Source of the DNA: Chrysochromulina tobinii
Taxonomy: Eukaryota; Haptophyta; Prymnesiales; Chrysochromulinaceae
Length of the DNA stretch: 26,845 nucleotides
Direction of reading: 5' to 3'
Assembly: GCA_001275005.1 (NCBI GenBank)
Contig: JWZX01002672.1
Location: 1 to 26,845, forward strand
A program made the position numbers and the translations under genes. The notes under the pieces are model-generated. The model did no database searches. It was not told the DNA's origin and was given only the letters and a program-made list of their open reading frames with translations. Shown one piece after another: positions 43 to 25,468 of this stretch (positions within the stretch are counted from its first letter, which is position 1; every line of letters starts with the position of its first letter).

Positions 43-286
43 ATGAGCGAGGCCATCGTCGAGGCGGCGCGCTCGCGCCGCCGGACGCAACGCCAGGAAA
101 CCGCTGATGCGCCTGAGGCATCCGCACCCGCCGAGCCAGCCGCCGCCGACCTAGCCAGTGCCTCTCGGGCGCGCTCACGGCGCGCGCGCGCAGAGGCCAC
201 GAGCGATACCATTGCTTCAGCAGCCGAAGCCGCGAGAGTGCCAGCTGCCGCGGACGACGTGGATAAGGGGACGGCACGCTCCCGCC

Positions 287-327
<41 letters not shown>

Positions 328-3300
328 GAAGCAGCAGCAGCACGCGACAATGAGGAAGCGAATGTGTCGGTGAGCGGCCGCTCACGTCGCGGGCGCGGGG
401 CACGAGCCGAGGCGGCTGCAGTCGACGAGTCGCCGTCGCCCACAAGCGTGACTGCCGACGCTTCGTCGCCCGCAGGCACAGCCCGCAGCGCGCGGCGCCG
501 CGGCGTGACAGAGCTGCCAATGGCGGACGCCGCCGACGTCGACGAGACGGACGAGGCCGCCAAGCCGCCGAAAAAGTCGTCGGCCCTCGAGCGCGCGCGT
601 GCCAAGCGAGCCGCTTCACGGCGGTCGGCCGATGGTCCCGAGGACGGCGTGGCCGACGCGGCCGCCGACGGCGAAGATGCCAAGAACGCCTCGGCCGGTG
701 CGAGCGCGCGCGCACTCCGCCGTGCAGCTGCCGCTGCCGCCGCCTCGAGCGCCGAGGATGACGAGACCATTGACGAGACCGAAGGCGCCGAGCAGCAGGG
801 CCAGACACTTTCCGGTACGTTGCGGCAGCGGATGGGCCTCCGCCCGCTTGCGGTGCTAACCGGCCTCAGGCGTGCCGTTGGCGCACGCGGCGAAGTGGCC
901 GGTCCCCTTGGCGCCGAGCGTCGCGCCGAGCGCCCACGGCCTTCGTCGGCGCCGGCCGAGCGCGCCGCCTCGGGCGCTAGCGTCGGCAAGCCGAAACTGG
1001 CCAACTTGAAGTCGGGGATCGGCGCGACGCTCGCGGCCATGAGAGCGGCTGGTGTGCACGCGGTCGGCGGCCTCCCAGCGTACCTCCGTCGAGGAGGGTC
1101 GAGCGACGTCGAGGATCTGCCCCCCTTTGAGCGCGCGCCGCTCTTCGACGACAAGGAGGCCGCGCTCGCCACGCTCGCGGGGCAGCTGACCTCGATCACC
1201 ATCCACCGCACCGACGAGTTGCCGCACGACTGGCGCATCGCGCACCCGATGATCCAAGTTTCGATCGTCAACGGCGCCACAGGCCACCTGCTGCGCAAGT
1301 CGGCCGTTGATCGCCCAGCGACCACGCGTCTTGAGATGTCTCACAACGGCGGCGTGGTCCCGTATCTGCTACCCATGCTCACCAAGCCGTTTGGGCTGCG
1401 AGGCGCGGCGACACGGCTGCCCAGCTGGGAGGAAGAGCTCCTCTTCGCCGAGGACTTTCTGTACCTGCTACACCCGCGCGTCTTCCTCCTCTTTGAGCTG
1501 TACGATTTCGATCCCGAGTCTCGCGAGCCCGGCGCTGCAGGTATGCGCCCGTTCGCGTGGGCCTTCCTCAAGCCCGTCTCAGGCCCGATGAGCCAGCCCG
1601 GCCATGCCAACCTGCTTCGGCCCATGCCCCTGCGGCTGCAGCTCCACCGCTGGCAGAAGGCTGTGCGGCCCCAGGCCAACCAGCACGCCGGGTGGGCGCA
1701 GTACCTTGCCGCTGGTCGACAGCCGTACTCGTCGACGGTCTATGTGACCATCAAGCCGCACGAGCCGCCCGACGTGCTGCCTGTGCGCTTCCCATACCGA
1801 CCGACGGCAGCCCATCACCAGGAGGAGGGGCGCCTCTCCTTCGAGCGCCTGCAACAGGAGACGGCGCGCGGCTACGGCACAGGTGCTTCGGCGCTTGGCG
1901 CATCCGTCGCGTCCGCATCGACGGTGTCAACGCTCTCGAGCCCGCGCCCCTCATTGTTCGCCAATCTTCCGGCGCGCGCGTCCAACAGCGCATGTCTCGT
2001 GCCCAACGAGCCGCTGCACACGTTCCCAGGCGGTGCGAACGGTGCGACGGCCGTTTCCATCAGCCCCAGCGGCTCGCTGCTTGCGATCGCGCTCGAGGAG
2101 CTCGGCCACGTGATGCTCGCAGTGCACGAGCTCGGCAGCGGCCGGCGGCGCATGCTCATGCATGCGCACCACCGTACCGTTCACGAGCTGTGCTGGAGCG
2201 CCGATGGCGACTCACTCCTCTCCGTCTCCGCCGACGGCACCGCCAAGCTCTGGCGGCTCCACCTCGATGAGAGCAGCGAGCCGCCCGAGGCGGCCGTCGC
2301 CACGCTCGGCCACCCCTCATTCGTCTACTGCGCGCGCATGCAACCGGTGGGGCCACTCGGAGCGCGCGGCACCCTCGGCGGCAGTGCGCCACTCCTCGTG
2401 CTCACGGGCTGCAACGATTGCGCGCTCCGGCTCTGGGACGCTGCCAAGGAGGAGCTGCTCGCCGTCAAGACGGAGCACAAGGCGCGCATCAACTGCATCA
2501 CGTGGGCGAGCGAGACCAATCTCATCTTCTCGGCCGACGCGAAGGGCGTCGTGCGCCAGTGGGAACTCGTCGGTCCTCAAGGCGCTGTCGAGCTCAAGGC
2601 GCTGCCGCCCATTGAGAAGAAGGAGCTTGATGGCGTCCCAATCAACTCGCTCTCGCTCCACCCCAACCGGCGGCGGCTGCTGCTCCAGACGCGTCAGAAC
2701 CAGATTCTCGCGCTCGACACGCGCTCGCAGCACTTTGCTGCGCGCTACCAGGGCAGCGCGTGCTCCGAGTACCACGTGCGCGCGAGCTACTCGCCAGACG
2801 GGCGCTACGTGGTCGCCGGATCCGAAGATGGTCGCTGGTATCTGTGGGCGGAGGAGTCGGGCAACCTGCTCCTCGACGGCCACGTGGTCGGCTTCTCGGG
2901 GCCGCTGCTGCAGATTGCGTGGGCCCCCACGCACCACGTTCTCGCCATGTGCGGCTACGGCGCCAACAATCCGGTGCGCGTGTACGCGTACGCAGCCGAT
3001 AAGCCCGCCCTCGACCCGCGCATCGACGAGCTGCGCCCCCCCCTGACACTGGGCCTGGCTGCGGAAGCCGCGGCTGCGGGCGGGGTTGCCGCCGCCTCCG
3101 CCATCGCCGAAGCCCCCGGCACAGCGCCAGTGCCAACGGATCGCTCAGCGCATCGGCAGGCGCGTCAAGAGGCGCGCGCTGCATCGCGCGTAGGCTTGGC
3201 AGCGCGCCTGGCAGCGTCCACTGGCCAGACAGGCGCGGGTCTCGACGCTGCTGTAAAGGCAATGTCAATCTCGGCGGACTCGGCGCTGCAAACGAAGGAA

Positions 3301-3414
3301 GGAGCTGCCTCGGGGGCTTCACCTACAGCGGCCGGCGCGGGGATTCTCGAGAAGTTATCGTCACGTCGGAAAGCCGCGGCCGCGGAGGCTCGTGCGAGAG
3401 ATGGTTCCAGTTAA
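43..3414 (+). CDS. AHI1-like: Jouberin (AHI1)-like WD40 repeat protein
   Basis: Single-exon gene of 1123 residues starting at the ATG at 43. Residues 1-380 are low-complexity, rich in Ala, Arg, Glu and Ser, with a poly-Ala run encoded by a GCC repeat. Residues about 398-570 match the conserved block that precedes the propeller in jouberin: an IQVSIVNGATGHLL strand, a LPSWEEELLF motif, then LLHPRVFLLFELYDFD and AFAWAFLK-type strands ending in STVYVTIKP. Residues about 655-980 form a WD40 propeller with clear repeats (SADGTAKLWRL, LTGCNDCALRLWD, AGSEDGRWYLW) and the jouberin-like HPSFVY motif between blades. The last 140 residues are low complexity. In animals AHI1 sits at the ciliary transition zone and is mutated in Joubert syndrome. 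A transition-zone role here is inferred from homology. The SH3 domain of vertebrate AHI1 is not visible. Family assignment is confident; the long N-terminus is unusual. Confidence 0.9.
284..325 (+). repeat. GCC trinucleotide run encoding poly-Ala
   Basis: A nearly perfect GCC repeat inside the jouberin-like gene encodes a run of about 14 alanines. It is a coding microsatellite and probably length-variable. Confidence 0.85.
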
Positions 3415-16669: not shown

Positions 16670-18298
16670 CTACTCGACGTCGTCCGCGACGTCCAGAGCC
16701 TTTTCGAGCGCTTCCTTCAGGATTCGCATGCCCTTGCGCCGCATACCCGAGATGGGCACTACAGCGACGGGCGCTGCCGTCTCGTTGGCAGAGCGCCCGG
16801 CGCTCACGGCGATCGCGCGTGTCGCCTCTCTTTGGACGAGCTTCATCGCCTCTTCGCCGTCAGCCTCTAGCGGTATGTCGAGCTTGTTGAGCGCCACCAC
16901 GTGAGGCCGCTCGAGGTACTGCGGGTTATACAGGCGCAGCTCGCGCTTGAGCACGTCGTACTGCTCGCCCACCGAGGGCTCCTTGCAGTTCGTGTCGAGC
17001 ACGTATAGCACGACGCGCACTCGGCGCAGGTGGCGCAGGAAGAGCCTGCCGAGCCCCCGGCCCTGATGGGCGTCCTCGACCAGTCCTGGCAGGTCGGCTA
17101 GCACGGGCGGCGCACGCGTCGGGCTGCGGGTGCTAGCGGCGGTGGCAGCTGTGCTCGCGCTTGGCGATGCCGAGGCCTGTTGCATCGCCCCGAGGTTAGG
17201 CATGAGCGTTGTGAATGGGAACGGAGCCACCTCCGGCGTTGCGCGTGAGAGGGCTCCGAGTAGGGTCGACTTGCCCGCATTCGGGAAGCCGACGAAGCCC
17301 ACATCCGCGACGGTGCGCAGCACGAGCGAGAGGGCTACCTCCTGCGCGGGCCGCCCACGCGTAAGTCCCAGCAGCTCATCCTCGCTGGGCGCAAACGCGT
17401 CCTCATCCACATTGTCAAAGGCAGCCATCGGGTCGTCGGGCACCGAGGTGCGCGAGCTACCTCTCCGCCCGCTTCCCTTGCCGCTGCGACCGCCTGCATC
17501 CCGCGGTTTTCGCTCCTGGTTGAGGACGCACGGGCCGCCCTCGCCGCCCACGGCCACGATGAGCTCCTGCCGTGGAGCGACGAGGTCCCCGAGCACCTTG
17601 CCGCTCTTGGTGCGCACAAAAGTACCCGGCGGCACCGGAATACGCAGCACCTCGCCGTCGCGCAGCTTGACGGAGCTCACGCCGCCGGCGGCGCCGGCAC
17701 GCGTCACGCCGCCTGGCGCGCTGCCAGCACTACCGCTGTTGCCCATCTGTTCAACGAGCGCGCGCCATCGCTCTCGTGCTGCCGGCAGATCGCGCAGGCC
17801 TTGGGAGTCGCCCCCACGCGATGCCACCAGCACAGGGCGGCCGCGTAGGTGCAGCAGATCGCTCAGTGCTGGGTCCACGAAGAGCACCACGTTGCCACCG
17901 GCACCACCGCCAGGAGGCAGCTCGAAGTCGTCGTCAGACGTGCGCTTGAGCCGTGGGCCCTCACCACGTGCTGGGAGCGCGATCACCGCGCCATCGCCGC
18001 CGTTGCCGCTGCGCACCACCACCTCGACCTCGTCAAAGTACAGGTGCTTGAGCTTCTCGATGTCCTCGGGGGGCGCCTTGGAGGAGAGCCGCTTTGAGGG
18101 CTTGGAGTCTCCCTTGCGTGAGGCGGCCATGAGCACTGGATGGCTCCGTAGCAGCGGCCGTGGGAGCACGGCCGACGGCACGGACCTCCCTGAGAGCTCG
18201 TGCTTGTTGCGGCCCAGCGGTGAGCTGAGAAGGAAGCACATGACACAAGCCGGTCTCATCGCGCGACCTGCTGCTCCCCAAAAGGTCGTCAGCGTCAT
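16670..18298 (-). CDS. obgC-like: Obg-family GTPase, probably plastid-targeted
   Basis: 542 residues from the ATG at 18298; the open frame extends further only through the GTGA microsatellite using a non-ATG codon. An ATG at 18259 is an alternative start. The first about 60 residues contain a short hydrophobic stretch (PACVMCFLLSSPLG) and a basic Ser/Pro-rich tail, consistent with a bipartite plastid presequence. The Gly-rich Obg fold follows (FDEVEVVVRSGNGGDGAV, GGGAGGNVVLFVD, VPPGTFV), although the usual FRREK segment is altered. The G domain has G1 GFPNAGKS at 337-344, G2 PFTT, G3 DLPG at 402-405 and G4 NKLD at 471-474. There are species-specific insertions between the two domains and after G2. 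Plastid Obg proteins act in plastid ribosome assembly and membrane biogenesis. Plastid rather than mitochondrial location is inferred. Confidence 0.9.
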   Translation of the reverse strand: MTLTTFWGAAGRAMRPACVMCFLLSSPLGRNKHELSGRSVPSAVLPRPLLRSHPVLMAASRKGDSKPSKRLSSKAPPEDIEKLKHLYFDEVEVVVRSGNGGDGAVIALPARGEGPRLKRTSDDDFELPPGGGAGGNVVLFVDPALSDLLHLRGRPVLVASRGGDSQGLRDLPAARERWRALVEQMGNSGSAGSAPGGVTRAGAAGGVSSVKLRDGEVLRIPVPPGTFVRTKSGKVLGDLVAPRQELIVAVGGEGGPCVLNQERKPRDAGGRSGKGSGRRGSSRTSVPDDPMAAFDNVDEDAFAPSEDELLGLTRGRPAQEVALSLVLRTVADVGFVGFPNAGKSTLLGALSRATPEVAPFPFTTLMPNLGAMQQASASPSASTAATAASTRSPTRAPPVLADLPGLVEDAHQGRGLGRLFLRHLRRVRVVLYVLDTNCKEPSVGEQYDVLKRELRLYNPQYLERPHVVALNKLDIPLEADGEEAMKLVQREATRAIAVSAGRSANETAAPVAVVPISGMRRKGMRILKEALEKALDVADDVE

Positions 18299-18451
18299 GA
18301 CCCCGAGTGTGAAGGTCGTGAGTGAGTGATGAGTGAGTGAGTGAGTGAGTGAGTGAGTGAGTGTCTCGTTTATCAATCGTCTCTCATCTCAATTAGATGT
18401 CTCATCACTGTCTCATTCCCTACAAAGTCGCGTACAGTGAGCACGCGTGAG
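18299..18451. promoter_or_regulatory. Short divergent promoter with GTGA microsatellite
   Basis: Only 153 bp separate the Obg start (18298, minus) from the start of the small membrane protein (18452, plus). The interval contains a GTGA repeat and a downstream stretch with several TCTCAT words (about 18380-18415). Confidence 0.5.
18318..18363. repeat. (GTGA)n microsatellite
   Basis: About ten tetranucleotide units with one interruption. On the minus strand it lies in the presumed 5' UTR of the Obg gene. Confidence 0.9.
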
Positions 18452-19145: not shown

Positions 19146-19949
19146 ATGGATGACCTGGTGACCGCGCTGAGCCGACGTGGCTTCGACGTATTGGCACCAT
19201 TTCGCGTGTCGTGGTACAATGAATACATTCAGAAGCTCGGTCTCGCCACCGATGAGAACCACGTCGCTGGGTCCGCGTTCACTCTCGCACCGCTGCCCAA
19301 CCTCGGCCAGGACGATGCGCTGGCGCTGATCGTGGGAAACTCAAAGGCTATGTGGCCCAACATGCTGCGTTGGTTGAAGTCGCAGCCGGATCCTGCCGTG
19401 GTCAAAGATCCGGTCGACACGTTCAGTTCAGAGGTCATCAGTGCAGCGATCTCGAGCTTTGCCGCCGCTACGGATGGCAGGCCCGCGATCGCTCACGACA
19501 TGTTCTGGGCCTCGGACATGTCGGCAGCGCGGCTGGTTGATATGAATCGAGCAGCGTACGTGAGCGGTGTTTGCTACTTTAGCGATGAAATGTATCTGTC
19601 GATACACCCGACGTTCGGCACTTGGGTAGCCTTCCGAGCAGTTGTTGTGTTGGACATACCTGGCTCACAGCTCGGCCCAGGGCCGGCTTTGCTGCCACCT
19701 CTGCTCACTGACGAGGAGAAGGCCGCCGCCAAGGTCGCCTTTGCCGAAGCCCTCAAGGCATCCTCCGAGGTGGACATGAGTGTCGAGGTGGGCATGCCGC
19801 TCGATATCGCACAAAAGTGGGCGGCGATGCGCGACTGCGTGGCCCTCGGGCGCGAATACAAGTACGACGACAGCCAGAGCGAGTATCACTATACCAAGAA
19901 TCCGGAGTTGCTTGTGGCTGCGCTTGCGGCATTGGACACAGAGAGCTAG
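19146..19949 (+). CDS. MMACHC: MMACHC (cblC) homologue, cobalamin processing protein
   Basis: 267 residues from the ATG at 19146; an ATG seven bases upstream runs into a stop after four codons. Diagnostic features of the family are present: GFDVLAPFRVSWYNEYI near the N-terminus (about 12-28), a DPVD motif (about 88-91), the signature IHPTFGTWVAFRAVVVL at about 152-168, and a C-terminal REYKYDDSQSEYHY segment resembling the YS.EQ..Y region of the human protein. MMACHC binds incoming cobalamin in the cytosol and removes its upper ligand (decyanation or glutathione-dependent dealkylation) before delivery to methionine synthase and methylmalonyl-CoA mutase. Its presence implies that the alga takes up and uses vitamin B12. 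Length matches the conserved core of the human protein without its Pro-rich tail. Confidence 0.9.
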   Translation: MDDLVTALSRRGFDVLAPFRVSWYNEYIQKLGLATDENHVAGSAFTLAPLPNLGQDDALALIVGNSKAMWPNMLRWLKSQPDPAVVKDPVDTFSSEVISAAISSFAAATDGRPAIAHDMFWASDMSAARLVDMNRAAYVSGVCYFSDEMYLSIHPTFGTWVAFRAVVVLDIPGSQLGPGPALLPPLLTDEEKAAAKVAFAEALKASSEVDMSVEVGMPLDIAQKWAAMRDCVALGREYKYDDSQSEYHYTKNPELLVAALAALDTES

Positions 19950-20220: not shown

Positions 20221-20270
20221 TCCGCTCGATGGGATGGCCTGTGGGCGGGCTGGGACCCCACGAGCATCAT
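20221..20270 (-). promoter_or_regulatory. SECIS element (selenocysteine insertion) in the 3' UTR
   Basis: Read on the minus strand, ATGA (20270-20267) begins the core. TGAT pairs with GGAG (20223-20220) as the quartet, including tandem G-A/A-G pairs. Helix II is GCTCG with CGAGC (5 bp), a bulged T, then TGGGGT with ATCCCA (6 bp, one G-U). Twelve bases after ATGA comes an unpaired CCCA, the CC variant of the usual apical AA. A 3-bp mini-stem GCC/GGC with an 8-base loop caps it, the form 2 SECIS architecture. Weaker pairing (CTCT with AGAG) could extend helix I below the quartet. The element begins about 100 bases after the TAG stop of the peroxiredoxin. It is what allows UGA to be read as selenocysteine. 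Confidence 0.88.
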
Positions 20271-20369
20271 ATGAGAGCCTGATGTGGAGGTGCGGGCGCG
20301 TCTTGAGTTGTGCACAGGGGGACTGGTGTTGGAGCAGACTGGACTCCTGCGTGCGCTCACGGCGGTGCT

Positions 20370-21172
20370 CTAGAGCTTCGCGATGAGATCGAGCACGTTC
20401 TCGATGCAGGAGGACTGCGGGAAGCTGTCACCGGCAGGGTCGACTTCGCCATTGGGGCCCTTCTCGGAGATCTCAAAGATCTTGATCTCGCCATCGACGA
20501 CGTAGATGGCGGAGCGCTTGCACCGCTTCGTGTGGAAGCCGAGCGCATAGTTGGGGCCCTCGCCCGCGCCGTACGGTTTGCCCTCGCCCGTCAGCATGAT
20601 GCCGAGCGCCTCGGTCAGGGCCGCCTGCGTGTCGGCGACGAACTCGATCAGTTCCGAGGCCGCGAGGCCCTGATCCTTTTTCCAGCTCTCCATCACCGCG
20701 CCGTCGTTGACGCAGAAGACGTAGACCTTCTCGATCCCCGCCGCCTCAAGCCGGCCGTCAATTTCGGCCTTCTTGAGTCCAGGGACCTGGCAAGTAGATC
20801 AGGTAGGCGTGAACGCACCCGGGAGCGATACGAAAAGCACCTTATGTTTACCCTGCGCGCAGCGAGCAGGACATGTCAATGCCGATCGCGGCGGGCACCC
20901 TCGCTTGCAGCACCCCGTGCACGCTCACAGGGCTGACTGGGCGTGCGGACCTCGAGAAGCTGTGAGACGGGCATCGCCTTTGTGAAGCCGACCTGGACCA
21001 CCGGCGTCGTTGGGAACTTCCGGAGACCAGCGCTGGCCTTGCCCGCAGCGATGAGCAGCTGACCGATGGCGGTGATCGGATCTGCTGGCCGCGACTTGAG
21101 AATCTGGGTAACCGCCGACGCGATCGCCTCTTGCACCTTACTCGCTTCAAGGTATGCTGCGCCGTCCGCCAT
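20370..21172 (-). CDS. Dpy-30/RIIa-type docking motif fused to selenocysteine-containing Prx5-like peroxiredoxin
   Basis: Two exons (21172-20951 and 20852-20370) joined by a 98-bp phase-0 intron give 234 residues. Exon 1 encodes a Dpy-30/RIIa-like dimerisation-docking motif (residues about 6-42; YLEASKVQEAI then LKSRPADPI), as in proteins anchored to axonemes or AKAPs. Exon 2 encodes the thioredoxin-fold peroxiredoxin of the type II/Prx5 class: KVLFVSLPGAFTPT, then UGA at 20801-20799, then STCQVPG, VNDGAVM, LGIMLTG and KRSAIYVVDGEIK. The UGA (residue 92) replaces the peroxidatic Cys of the PTC motif and makes a Sec-x-x-Cys pair with Cys95. The frame stays open on both sides, and a SECIS follows the TAG stop. 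The predicted role is reduction of H2O2 and alkyl peroxides, possibly tethered to the flagellum. The intron donor (gtccgc) is weak, and the upstream frame is open to 21457, so the N-terminus is less certain than the Sec call. Confidence 0.87.
20799..20801 (-). other. In-frame TGA read as selenocysteine (Sec92)
   Basis: TGA lies between the codons for AFTPT and STCQVPG, exactly at the peroxidatic cysteine position of Prx5-type peroxiredoxins (consensus PTC). Downstream codons continue the family for about 140 residues, so this is not the end of the protein. Confidence 0.88.
20853..20950 (-). other. Intron of the selenoperoxiredoxin gene
   Basis: 98 bp, phase 0, donor gtccgc after GAG, acceptor gcgcgcag. 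Splicing joins VSQLLE to GKHKVLF, matching the loop-to-strand order of Prx5 proteins. A stronger-looking donor (gtgagc at 20928) would put the exons out of phase. Confidence 0.7.
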
Positions 21173-24424: not shown

Positions 24425-25468
24425 CTAGGATACGACCGAGTACATGATGACGGCGTTGAGAGCGGAGAGGCAGAGGCTCGAGAGCAGGACGTCGGGCGAC
24501 CGGTGATTGACTAGGAGCGCCTCAGCGAAGACAGTGAGCGCAATCGAGGACGAGGTGGCCACCACCTTGCCCACGGCACCGGCGAAGAGGATCGAGAGAG
24601 CGACGAGGATGCCGCCGCAGGCTGACAGAAGCGCTAAGAGCAAAGCATTCCACTCGAGAGACAGCCACGATTTTTGCGCAGTGGCACACTCGCGATTGAA
24701 GGTCGCGACGCCCATGTAGAAGACGGTAGAGAAGGCAGCGAGCTGCACGTTGCGCCGCCACATGATGAGCGGCGTCATCTCGAAGAGGTTCTGCATGTAA
24801 ACACACATGAGGCCCGAGAGCGCCGTCTCGAGCACAAGGCCACCCACGGCGAGCATATCGACGCCGTCTCGGTCGGGGATTTCCAACCCTAATCGCAGCG
24901 CCTCACCGGACTTCTGCGGGCGCGCCAGCATCTGCTCGTACCGCGTGATCGAGATGCATGCGAACACGAGCGCACTGAGCGCAAAGGTGCGCGGAGTGAG
25001 CAGCGCACGCTTGAGGAAGATACGTGCAAAGATGGGAGTAAAGACGATCTTGAGCTGAATGATGACGATCGCGAGCGCCGCTGGCAGGCGCGGTAAGCTA
25101 TAGAAGCTCAACAGGTTCATAACGCCATACGTAATGACCGGCCAAATGGCCATGTGCATCGTGTCAAGGTAGAGCCGGTATTGGTGCCAGCTGAACAGGA
25201 CTGAGCAGAGGAGCTTGAGCGCTTCGCTGTACATGAGCACCACCGAATCGCAAGTGTCGCTCCTCAAGTACGGCCTCAGCAGCACAAACGCAGCGCCCTG
25301 AGCTGCGAGGCACGCTGAGACAATGAATGCGATGATGTTTGTGGAATCAACTAAGGCCGGCTGCATGTGCACGTCCTCCTGTTCAGTGTGCTCTCGCTCC
25401 GCGGGCCTATCCAGTTTCGTGTACGGCAGCACCGCGGCCTGTCCCGAAGTCTTGCGCGTAGATATCAT
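24425..25468 (-). CDS. Nucleotide-sugar transporter (SLC35A / UDP-galactose, CMP-sialic acid type)
   Basis: 347 residues from the ATG at 25468, single exon, with about ten hydrophobic segments. Family signatures are clear: NLLSFYSLPRLPAALAIVII then QLK at residues 118-140 (the NNL..... Q.K region), EMTPLIMWRRNVQLAAFS near 230-246 (the W.RN.QL motif), and GGILVALSILFAGAVGKVVA then TSSSIALT at 285-312 (the GG...A....A....K..AT..S motif). The N-terminal 40 residues are a hydrophilic cytosolic tail. These proteins exchange a nucleotide sugar for the matching nucleoside monophosphate across the Golgi or ER membrane, feeding glycosylation. The substrate cannot be told from sequence. Confidence 0.92.
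   Translation of the reverse strand: MISTRKTSGQAAVLPYTKLDRPAEREHTEQEDVHMQPALVDSTNIIAFIVSACLAAQGAAFVLLRPYLRSDTCDSVVLMYSEALKLLCSVLFSWHQYRLYLDTMHMAIWPVITYGVMNLLSFYSLPRLPAALAIVIIQLKIVFTPIFARIFLKRALLTPRTFALSALVFACISITRYEQMLARPQKSGEALRLGLEIPDRDGVDMLAVGGLVLETALSGLMCVYMQNLFEMTPLIMWRRNVQLAAFSTVFYMGVATFNRECATAQKSWLSLEWNALLLALLSACGGILVALSILFAGAVGKVVATSSSIALTVFAEALLVNHRSPDVLLSSLCLSALNAVIMYSVVS

Follow-up and report, generated by a model that had tools for sequence, protein, structure and literature searches.

A predicted Prx5-type selenocysteine peroxiredoxin gene with an N-terminal docking-like tag in the haptophyte Chrysochromulina tobinii

The excerpts of PMC7539508 counted peroxiredoxin (PRX) as one of the algal selenoprotein families of widest distribution and gave 96 selenoprotein genes for E. 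huxleyi; Sec-peroxiredoxins with a SECIS were predicted in unicellular algae (PMC7539508 and PMC2375036, excerpts of both, which named no Prx subfamily for them), and UxxC Prx-like proteins were described from the Sargasso Sea metagenome (PMC1088965, excerpts). The fusions of algal selenoproteins named in the excerpts of PMC7539508 were SELENOM-pVHL, SELENOM-ShKT, and GST-MSRA, and a docking-tag fusion was not among them. Growth of other Chrysochromulina species responds to Se according to the excerpts of PMC6254913, in which the word peroxiredoxin was absent, and the main text of the C. tobinii genome paper (PMC4580454) had no word starting with 'selen' or 'peroxiredoxin'. As for docking modules, the DPY-30/RI docking-domain signature consists of two prolines between two helices and a Tyr near the start (PMC12203939, excerpts), and the engineered RIAD/RIDD assembly uses a 44-residue docking domain as an enzyme tag (PMC6751169, excerpts). 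The gene presented here shared with the algal selenoprotein PRX family (excerpts of PMC7539508 and PMC2375036) the predicted Sec-peroxiredoxin and the SECIS; Sec-peroxiredoxins were already known in algae, and what was new here was the fusion with a docking-like tag.

The window, i.e., the whole 26,845-nt stretch of C. tobinii DNA analysed (contig JWZX01002672.1), contained the Prx5 gene and its neighbouring frames as follows:

43-3414, plus strand: WD40 protein frame
16670-18376, minus strand: OBG-type GTPase frame
19146-19949, plus strand: convergent neighbour of the Prx5 gene, with an MMACHC match
20221..20270, minus strand: SECIS-like hairpin, form 2, with a CC-type apical bulge and an ATGA/GGA quartet around the helix
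20370..20852, minus strand: exon 2, coding, Prx5 core, ending with TAG at 20372-20370
20790..20792, minus strand: TGC, Cys95 (UxxC, three residues past the TGA), candidate resolving Cys
20799..20801, minus strand: in-frame TGA, codon 92 of 234, a predicted selenocysteine codon at the peroxidatic residue (PGAFTPT-U)
20853..20950, minus strand: putative 98-nt intron (GT..AG), placed from the sequence
20951..21172, minus strand: exon 1, coding, opening with the ATG at 21172; a stop-free frame of 74 aa that spans the tag, a linker, and the first Prx5 strand
21035..21172, minus strand: docking/dimerisation (DPY-30/PKA RI)-like tag, aa 1-46, recognised by its recurrence in the genome and by profile matches
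24425-25468, minus strand: nucleotide-sugar transporter frame

The convergent neighbour matched MMACHC, which we take to act in cobalamin processing, at 30.4 bits (cut-off 27).

The window gene formed a frame of 234 codons with a single TGA once the 98-nt intron 20950-20853 was taken out. The intron was supported by the closest paralogue, C1835 (89% match), which read LLEGK unbroken with the same join as LLE|GK in the window gene; a second copy of it, as expected of an introner-like repeat, was not found in the genome. The original prediction had a frame open on both sides of the TGA, which was correct, but only after removal of this intron, which it had overlooked together with four TGA-bearing paralogues and the N-terminal tag. 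Within exon 1, residues 44-74 showed a 60% match with C1835, which aligned only from residue 44, and residues 1-46 had no counterpart there.

The product was assigned to the Prx5/type II peroxiredoxins by several comparisons: (i) the Pfam Redoxin model scored 44.9 bits (cut-off 26.6); (ii) exon 2 matched Prx5 and type II peroxiredoxin chains in PDB by sequence and profile searches; and (iii) an AlphaFold model of exon 2 had a mean pLDDT of 90.9, weakest (68) in the ten-residue block containing the TGA, and its ten best Foldseek rows were type II/Prx5 and related peroxiredoxins (E 3e-11 to 1.4e-10). In the alignment with the PDB chains, the TGA at 20801-20799 fell on the Cys of PGAFTPTC, just as had been proposed for the peroxidatic Cys, and the active-site motif, which we take to be named PxxxTxxC in Prx5/type II enzymes, was present with U for C (PGAFTPTU). 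R110 and R113 were invariant across the 32 rows of alignment A1 (exon 2 of the window gene plus 31 of 103 homologues). Compared to human PRDX5, poplar PRX D, and yeast Ahp1, the window Prx shared the fold, PxxxTxxC, and the conserved Arg, but it differed in that a predicted Sec replaced the peroxidatic Cys, an additional UxxC cysteine was present, an insert preceded GFHTKRCKR, and a tag was attached at the N terminus. Searches for patterns back-translated from protein P0001 gave 0 matches in the viral contigs, and the pattern FTPT-TGA-..-VPG gave 0 matches in the viral and genome contigs.

The genome (53.2 Mb in 2253 contigs) contained seven Prx5-like places: five (L001 to L005) had one in-frame TGA, always exactly at the peroxidatic residue in FTPT-U or FTPV-U, and two (L006 and L007) had Cys in FTPTC. 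The Cys of UxxC was kept in C1835 and absent from L003 to L005. Between the window gene and C1835, exon 2 had a dN/dS of ~0.16, and purifying selection acted across the TGA region, before as well as after the TGA. The 103 database homologues could be sorted as follows: (i) 50 began at [MV]PG[LY], directly past the TGA; (ii) 13 had W and six had C at the position; and (iii) of the other 34, 31 aligned to exon 2 only past the TGA, the exceptions being P0005, P0010, and P0080. These protein starts and W residues suggested that the TGA is conserved in the database homologues as well. The 13 proteins with Trp at the peroxidatic position were P0075-P0078, P0083, P0085, P0087, P0089, P0090, and P0092-P0095, in which a TGA is suspected to have been read as W; some of them combined a signal-like start with a DEL/EEL end, so ER-located relatives may exist. 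A further protein, P0003 (136 aa, from a contig of 938 bases), looked like a chimera whose first part resembled paralogue L003 and the rest the window gene, and it is probably an assembly artefact.

The hairpin at 20270-20221 began 100 nt past the TAG. Its unconstrained RNAfold minimum-free-energy structure comprised 11 pairs interrupted by a single bulge; its apical bulge on the 5' side was 4 nt long (CCCA), and its mini-stem had 3 bp. This matched the SECIS fold described in the original prediction. A scan by SECIS rules (RTGA, at least 8 pairs, apical motif, and GA on the 3' side), which were fixed after the 3' flanks of the five TGA-bearing Prx genes had been viewed, placed this hairpin, with a score of 28, above all other structures on either strand of the window. 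When the 400-nt 3' flank was dinucleotide-shuffled, that score was reached in 3/3000 and 0/2000 cases. In a background of 526 400-nt pieces from 37 other loci, a score of 28 was reached by one piece, and a score of 22, the lowest among the five Prx hairpins, by seven. One background piece scored above the window hairpin (34): it lay on the minus strand of L029, at ~1600-2000 of the reverse complement, opposite the frame of GARS (the phosphoribosylamine-glycine ligase gene). By the same scan a hairpin was located 74-176 nt past the stop in 5/5 TGA Prx genes and in 0/2 Cys Prx genes; shuffles reached the respective scores of L001 to L005 in 0, 32, 1, 23, and 2 of 2000 cases, so two of the paralogue hairpins (32 and 23) were weak. 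The folding energy of the window hairpin was ordinary (z -0.22 with flanks and -1.11 for the 50-mer). No Rfam family matched it in the window, and no SECIS was reported by Rfam at a relaxed threshold in the seven Prx loci. Its apex was CC-type, with AA in most other hairpins of the genome, and when 13 hairpins of other loci were aligned with MAFFT, their arms came out misaligned. Judged by the rule scan, the shuffles, and the controls, and not by Rfam, the hairpin is a SECIS candidate that is presumably present in the transcript.

The rule scan was also applied to GPx and Rdx loci, the latter of which we take to be of the SelW/T/H type; neither had been used for setting the rules. An in-frame TGA, one in each case, was found in 6/6 Rdx and 9/13 GPx matches. 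Twelve of these 15 TGA loci were scanned and 11 had a downstream hairpin, the scan reaching 1.9 kb, a distance at which chance matches are likelier and some may lie in coding sequence; L023, a GPx with TGA, had none. L014 and L015 scored identically and had the same hairpin match, and they may be assembly duplicates. One of the two GPx loci without TGA had no hairpin, and the other had a distant match. The Sec machinery was represented in the genome by tRNA-Sec (70.7 bits; cut-off 47), SepSecS (E 5.8e-124), and SelD (E 4.7e-86), and the EFSec search gave a selB-model match of 171 bits on C2186 (model cut-off 242). Taken together, tRNA-Sec, SepSecS, SelD, and the TGA-bearing GPx and Rdx genes suggested that the genome uses Sec widely, and a large selenoproteome is likely in C. 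tobinii.

The evidence above bore on several readings in which the TGA would not encode Sec. Existing annotation implies that the TGA lies within a 54-nt intron (GTG..CAG), the removal of which would leave a protein without the catalytic residue: the deposited C. tobinii protein P0002 was identical to the C1835 frame minus exactly VLFVSLPGAFTPTUSTCQ, i.e., precisely 18 residues, so that the gene caller evidently took 54 nt for an intron, and the window has this GT..AG stretch as well. However, 11 of these 18 codons differed between the window gene and C1835, all synonymously and with the TGA in both, and what would be removed is the conserved active-site motif of Prx, which is retained by more distant paralogues; a genuine intron at this place is therefore highly improbable. 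The failure of gene callers at such genes, foreseen in the original prediction, was apparent from this false 18-residue intron and from the starts just past the TGA in nearly half of the homologues. The accompanying claim that the gene was unannotated held for the close paralogue, the protein of which lacks the 18 Sec-containing residues; for the window gene it stands on a database search only, in which no full-length protein was found among proteins 0.55-1.75x its length. One nonsense mutation would likewise leave a frame that is intact except for a lone TGA, and a pseudogene or a sequencing error might have turned a Cys codon into TGA; against this, the TGA stood at the same residue in five separate loci, selection acted on either side of it in exon 2, and each of the five 3' flanks carried a SECIS-like hairpin, so that this origin has practically no probability, in line with the earlier view that a frameshift or pseudogene was unlikely. 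Ordinary readthrough of the UGA as another amino acid (e.g., Trp), yielding a non-catalytic enzyme, would agree with the W of the 13 homologues, which itself possibly arose from gene calling with TGA=W or from TGG; this reading is very unlikely in view of the tRNA-Sec, SepSecS, and SelD genes, the SECIS-like hairpins, and the Cys found in six other homologues spanning the position. The reading of the window gene as a Prx5-type selenoprotein gene, as originally predicted, was supported at the sequence level, apart from the lack of an Rfam match and the EFSec match under its model cut-off.

The N-terminal tag recurred across the genome. A search with the first 74 residues of the window gene gave 27 places with E <= 1, the window included (a 28th match was the tagless C1835). 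Searching with the GARS copy gave 33 places with E <= 1, of which 21 had E <= 0.001; the window and the place of the query itself are counted in both figures. The tags of the window gene and the GARS gene (C1988) shared 72% of residues, and their DNA was closely similar between the ATG and about codon 41, with little similarity before or beyond this segment, which fits copying of a coding segment. Thirty of the 33 places were examined, and 27 frames, i.e., those other than L036 (the window), L058, and L062, were scanned with Pfam; a second Pfam domain exceeded its cut-off in 15 of the 27, all being predicted single open frames. These 15 frames fell into two groups: (i) 12 with a tag at E <= 0.001, namely, GARS, EPSP synthase, DJ-1/PfpI, APH-like kinase, AGM1-type phosphoacetylglucosamine mutase, GATase class I, LRR-kinase, SMP-30, SAICAR synthetase, 2OG dioxygenase, GST, and riboflavin kinase, the tag being C-terminal in the GST and riboflavin kinase frames; and (ii) three with a weaker tag (E 0.01-0.09), namely, class II tRNA synthetase, DUF6815, and adenylate kinase. 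In the EPSP synthase frame L037 (G000:C284:10698-10826), the tag was internal rather than at an end. The purine enzymes GARS and SAICAR synthetase and the class I glutamine amidotransferase (L029, L046, and L042, respectively) shared the tag of the window Prx. Searches of the protein database gave one match for the GARS tag and five for the SAICAR tag, again on enzymes.

A profile built from 21 copies matched the N terminus of the phosphopyruvate hydratase of 7n6g (E 1.7e-5), the PKA RI-alpha D/D (E 6.7e-4), DPY30 (E 0.0033), and FAP385 (E 0.0045); we take the first to be the Chlamydomonas axonemal enolase and FAP385 to be a Chlamydomonas axonemal protein. In alignment A5, composed of the window tag and 20 of the other 29 tag sequences, P29 and P32 were invariant and Y7 was present in at least 90% of the 21 rows; the tag thereby had the Tyr and the two prolines of the superfamily signature, its helices coming from a low-confidence model. 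The window tag alone scored 13.6 and 12.6 bits with Pfam Dpy-30 (PF05186), under the cut-off of 22, and a genome search with that model at E <= 1 gave 19 places, the window not among them; because of this single-sequence score under the cut-off, the tag is called docking-domain-like and not a Dpy-30 member. Compared to DPY-30, PKA RI-alpha, the 7n6g enolase, and FAP385, the tag shared a length of ~45 residues, a predicted arrangement of helix, two-proline linker, and helix, and an early Tyr, but the window copy fell under the Pfam cut-off and the module was found here on many metabolic-enzyme frames. A limited literature search turned up no paper naming both Dpy-30 and haptophytes, and the literature matches listed included none combining Dpy-30 with a peroxiredoxin or a selenoprotein.

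The selenoprotein might be real and its tag nevertheless not a docking module, i.e., a generic helical leader or a segment outside the mature protein. The Pfam score of the single sequence under the cut-off favoured this, as did the poor AlphaFold model of the tag (pLDDT 58.5), for which no structural match was found (best E 9.1). The module occurred, however, at 21 places at E <= 0.001, the window gene included; its two invariant prolines and near-invariant Tyr in 21 copies are as in DPY-30/RI domains (PMC12203939, excerpts); and its profile matched both the PKA RI-alpha D/D and DPY30. A non-docking tag is accordingly unlikely, while keeping a far better chance than any reading that denies Sec.

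The window gene very probably encodes a selenocysteine peroxidase with a docking-like tag, as predicted from the TGA at the peroxidatic residue and the SECIS-like hairpin. Hydroperoxides would be the substrates that this enzyme reduces, and the tag likely serves to tether it. Both Sec insertion and tethering are predictions from sequence, and the steps may be pictured as follows: (i) the 98-nt intron would be spliced out; (ii) the 3' hairpin, acting as a SECIS, would recruit SBP2/EFSec, and UGA 92 would be read as Sec; (iii) in the Prx5 pocket, with its Thr of PxxxTxxU and its conserved Arg, the selenolate of Sec would attack the peroxide; (iv) a thiol, perhaps Cys95 of UxxC, would resolve the product, and thioredoxin or glutathione would recycle the enzyme; and (v) the tag would dimerise the enzyme and dock on an amphipathic helix of a scaffold, like the docking domains of DPY-30 and PKA RI. 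A wider proposal, which we put forward tentatively and regard as doubtful, is that a mobile docking tag, spread to ~20-30 genes by coding-segment copying, brings metabolic enzymes (of purine synthesis, the shikimate pathway, amino-sugar metabolism, GST, and others) together on one shared scaffold, along with at least one selenocysteine peroxidase. RIAD/RIDD is man-made, whereas the C. tobinii tag is natural and its partner helix hypothetical; if the proposal were true, the tag would be a natural counterpart of RIAD/RIDD, and selenium-dependent peroxide removal would be an integral part of the complex, or else of the flagellum or haptonema.

Five predicted Sec-peroxiredoxin genes are hereby added to the haptophyte C. 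tobinii, and such genes are of a kind that gene callers erase, be it by a false intron or by a start placed just past the TGA. With numerous enzyme frames carrying the docking-like tag, a predicted selenoenzyme among them, DPY-30/RI-type physical assembly of metabolic and antioxidant enzymes in protists becomes testable.
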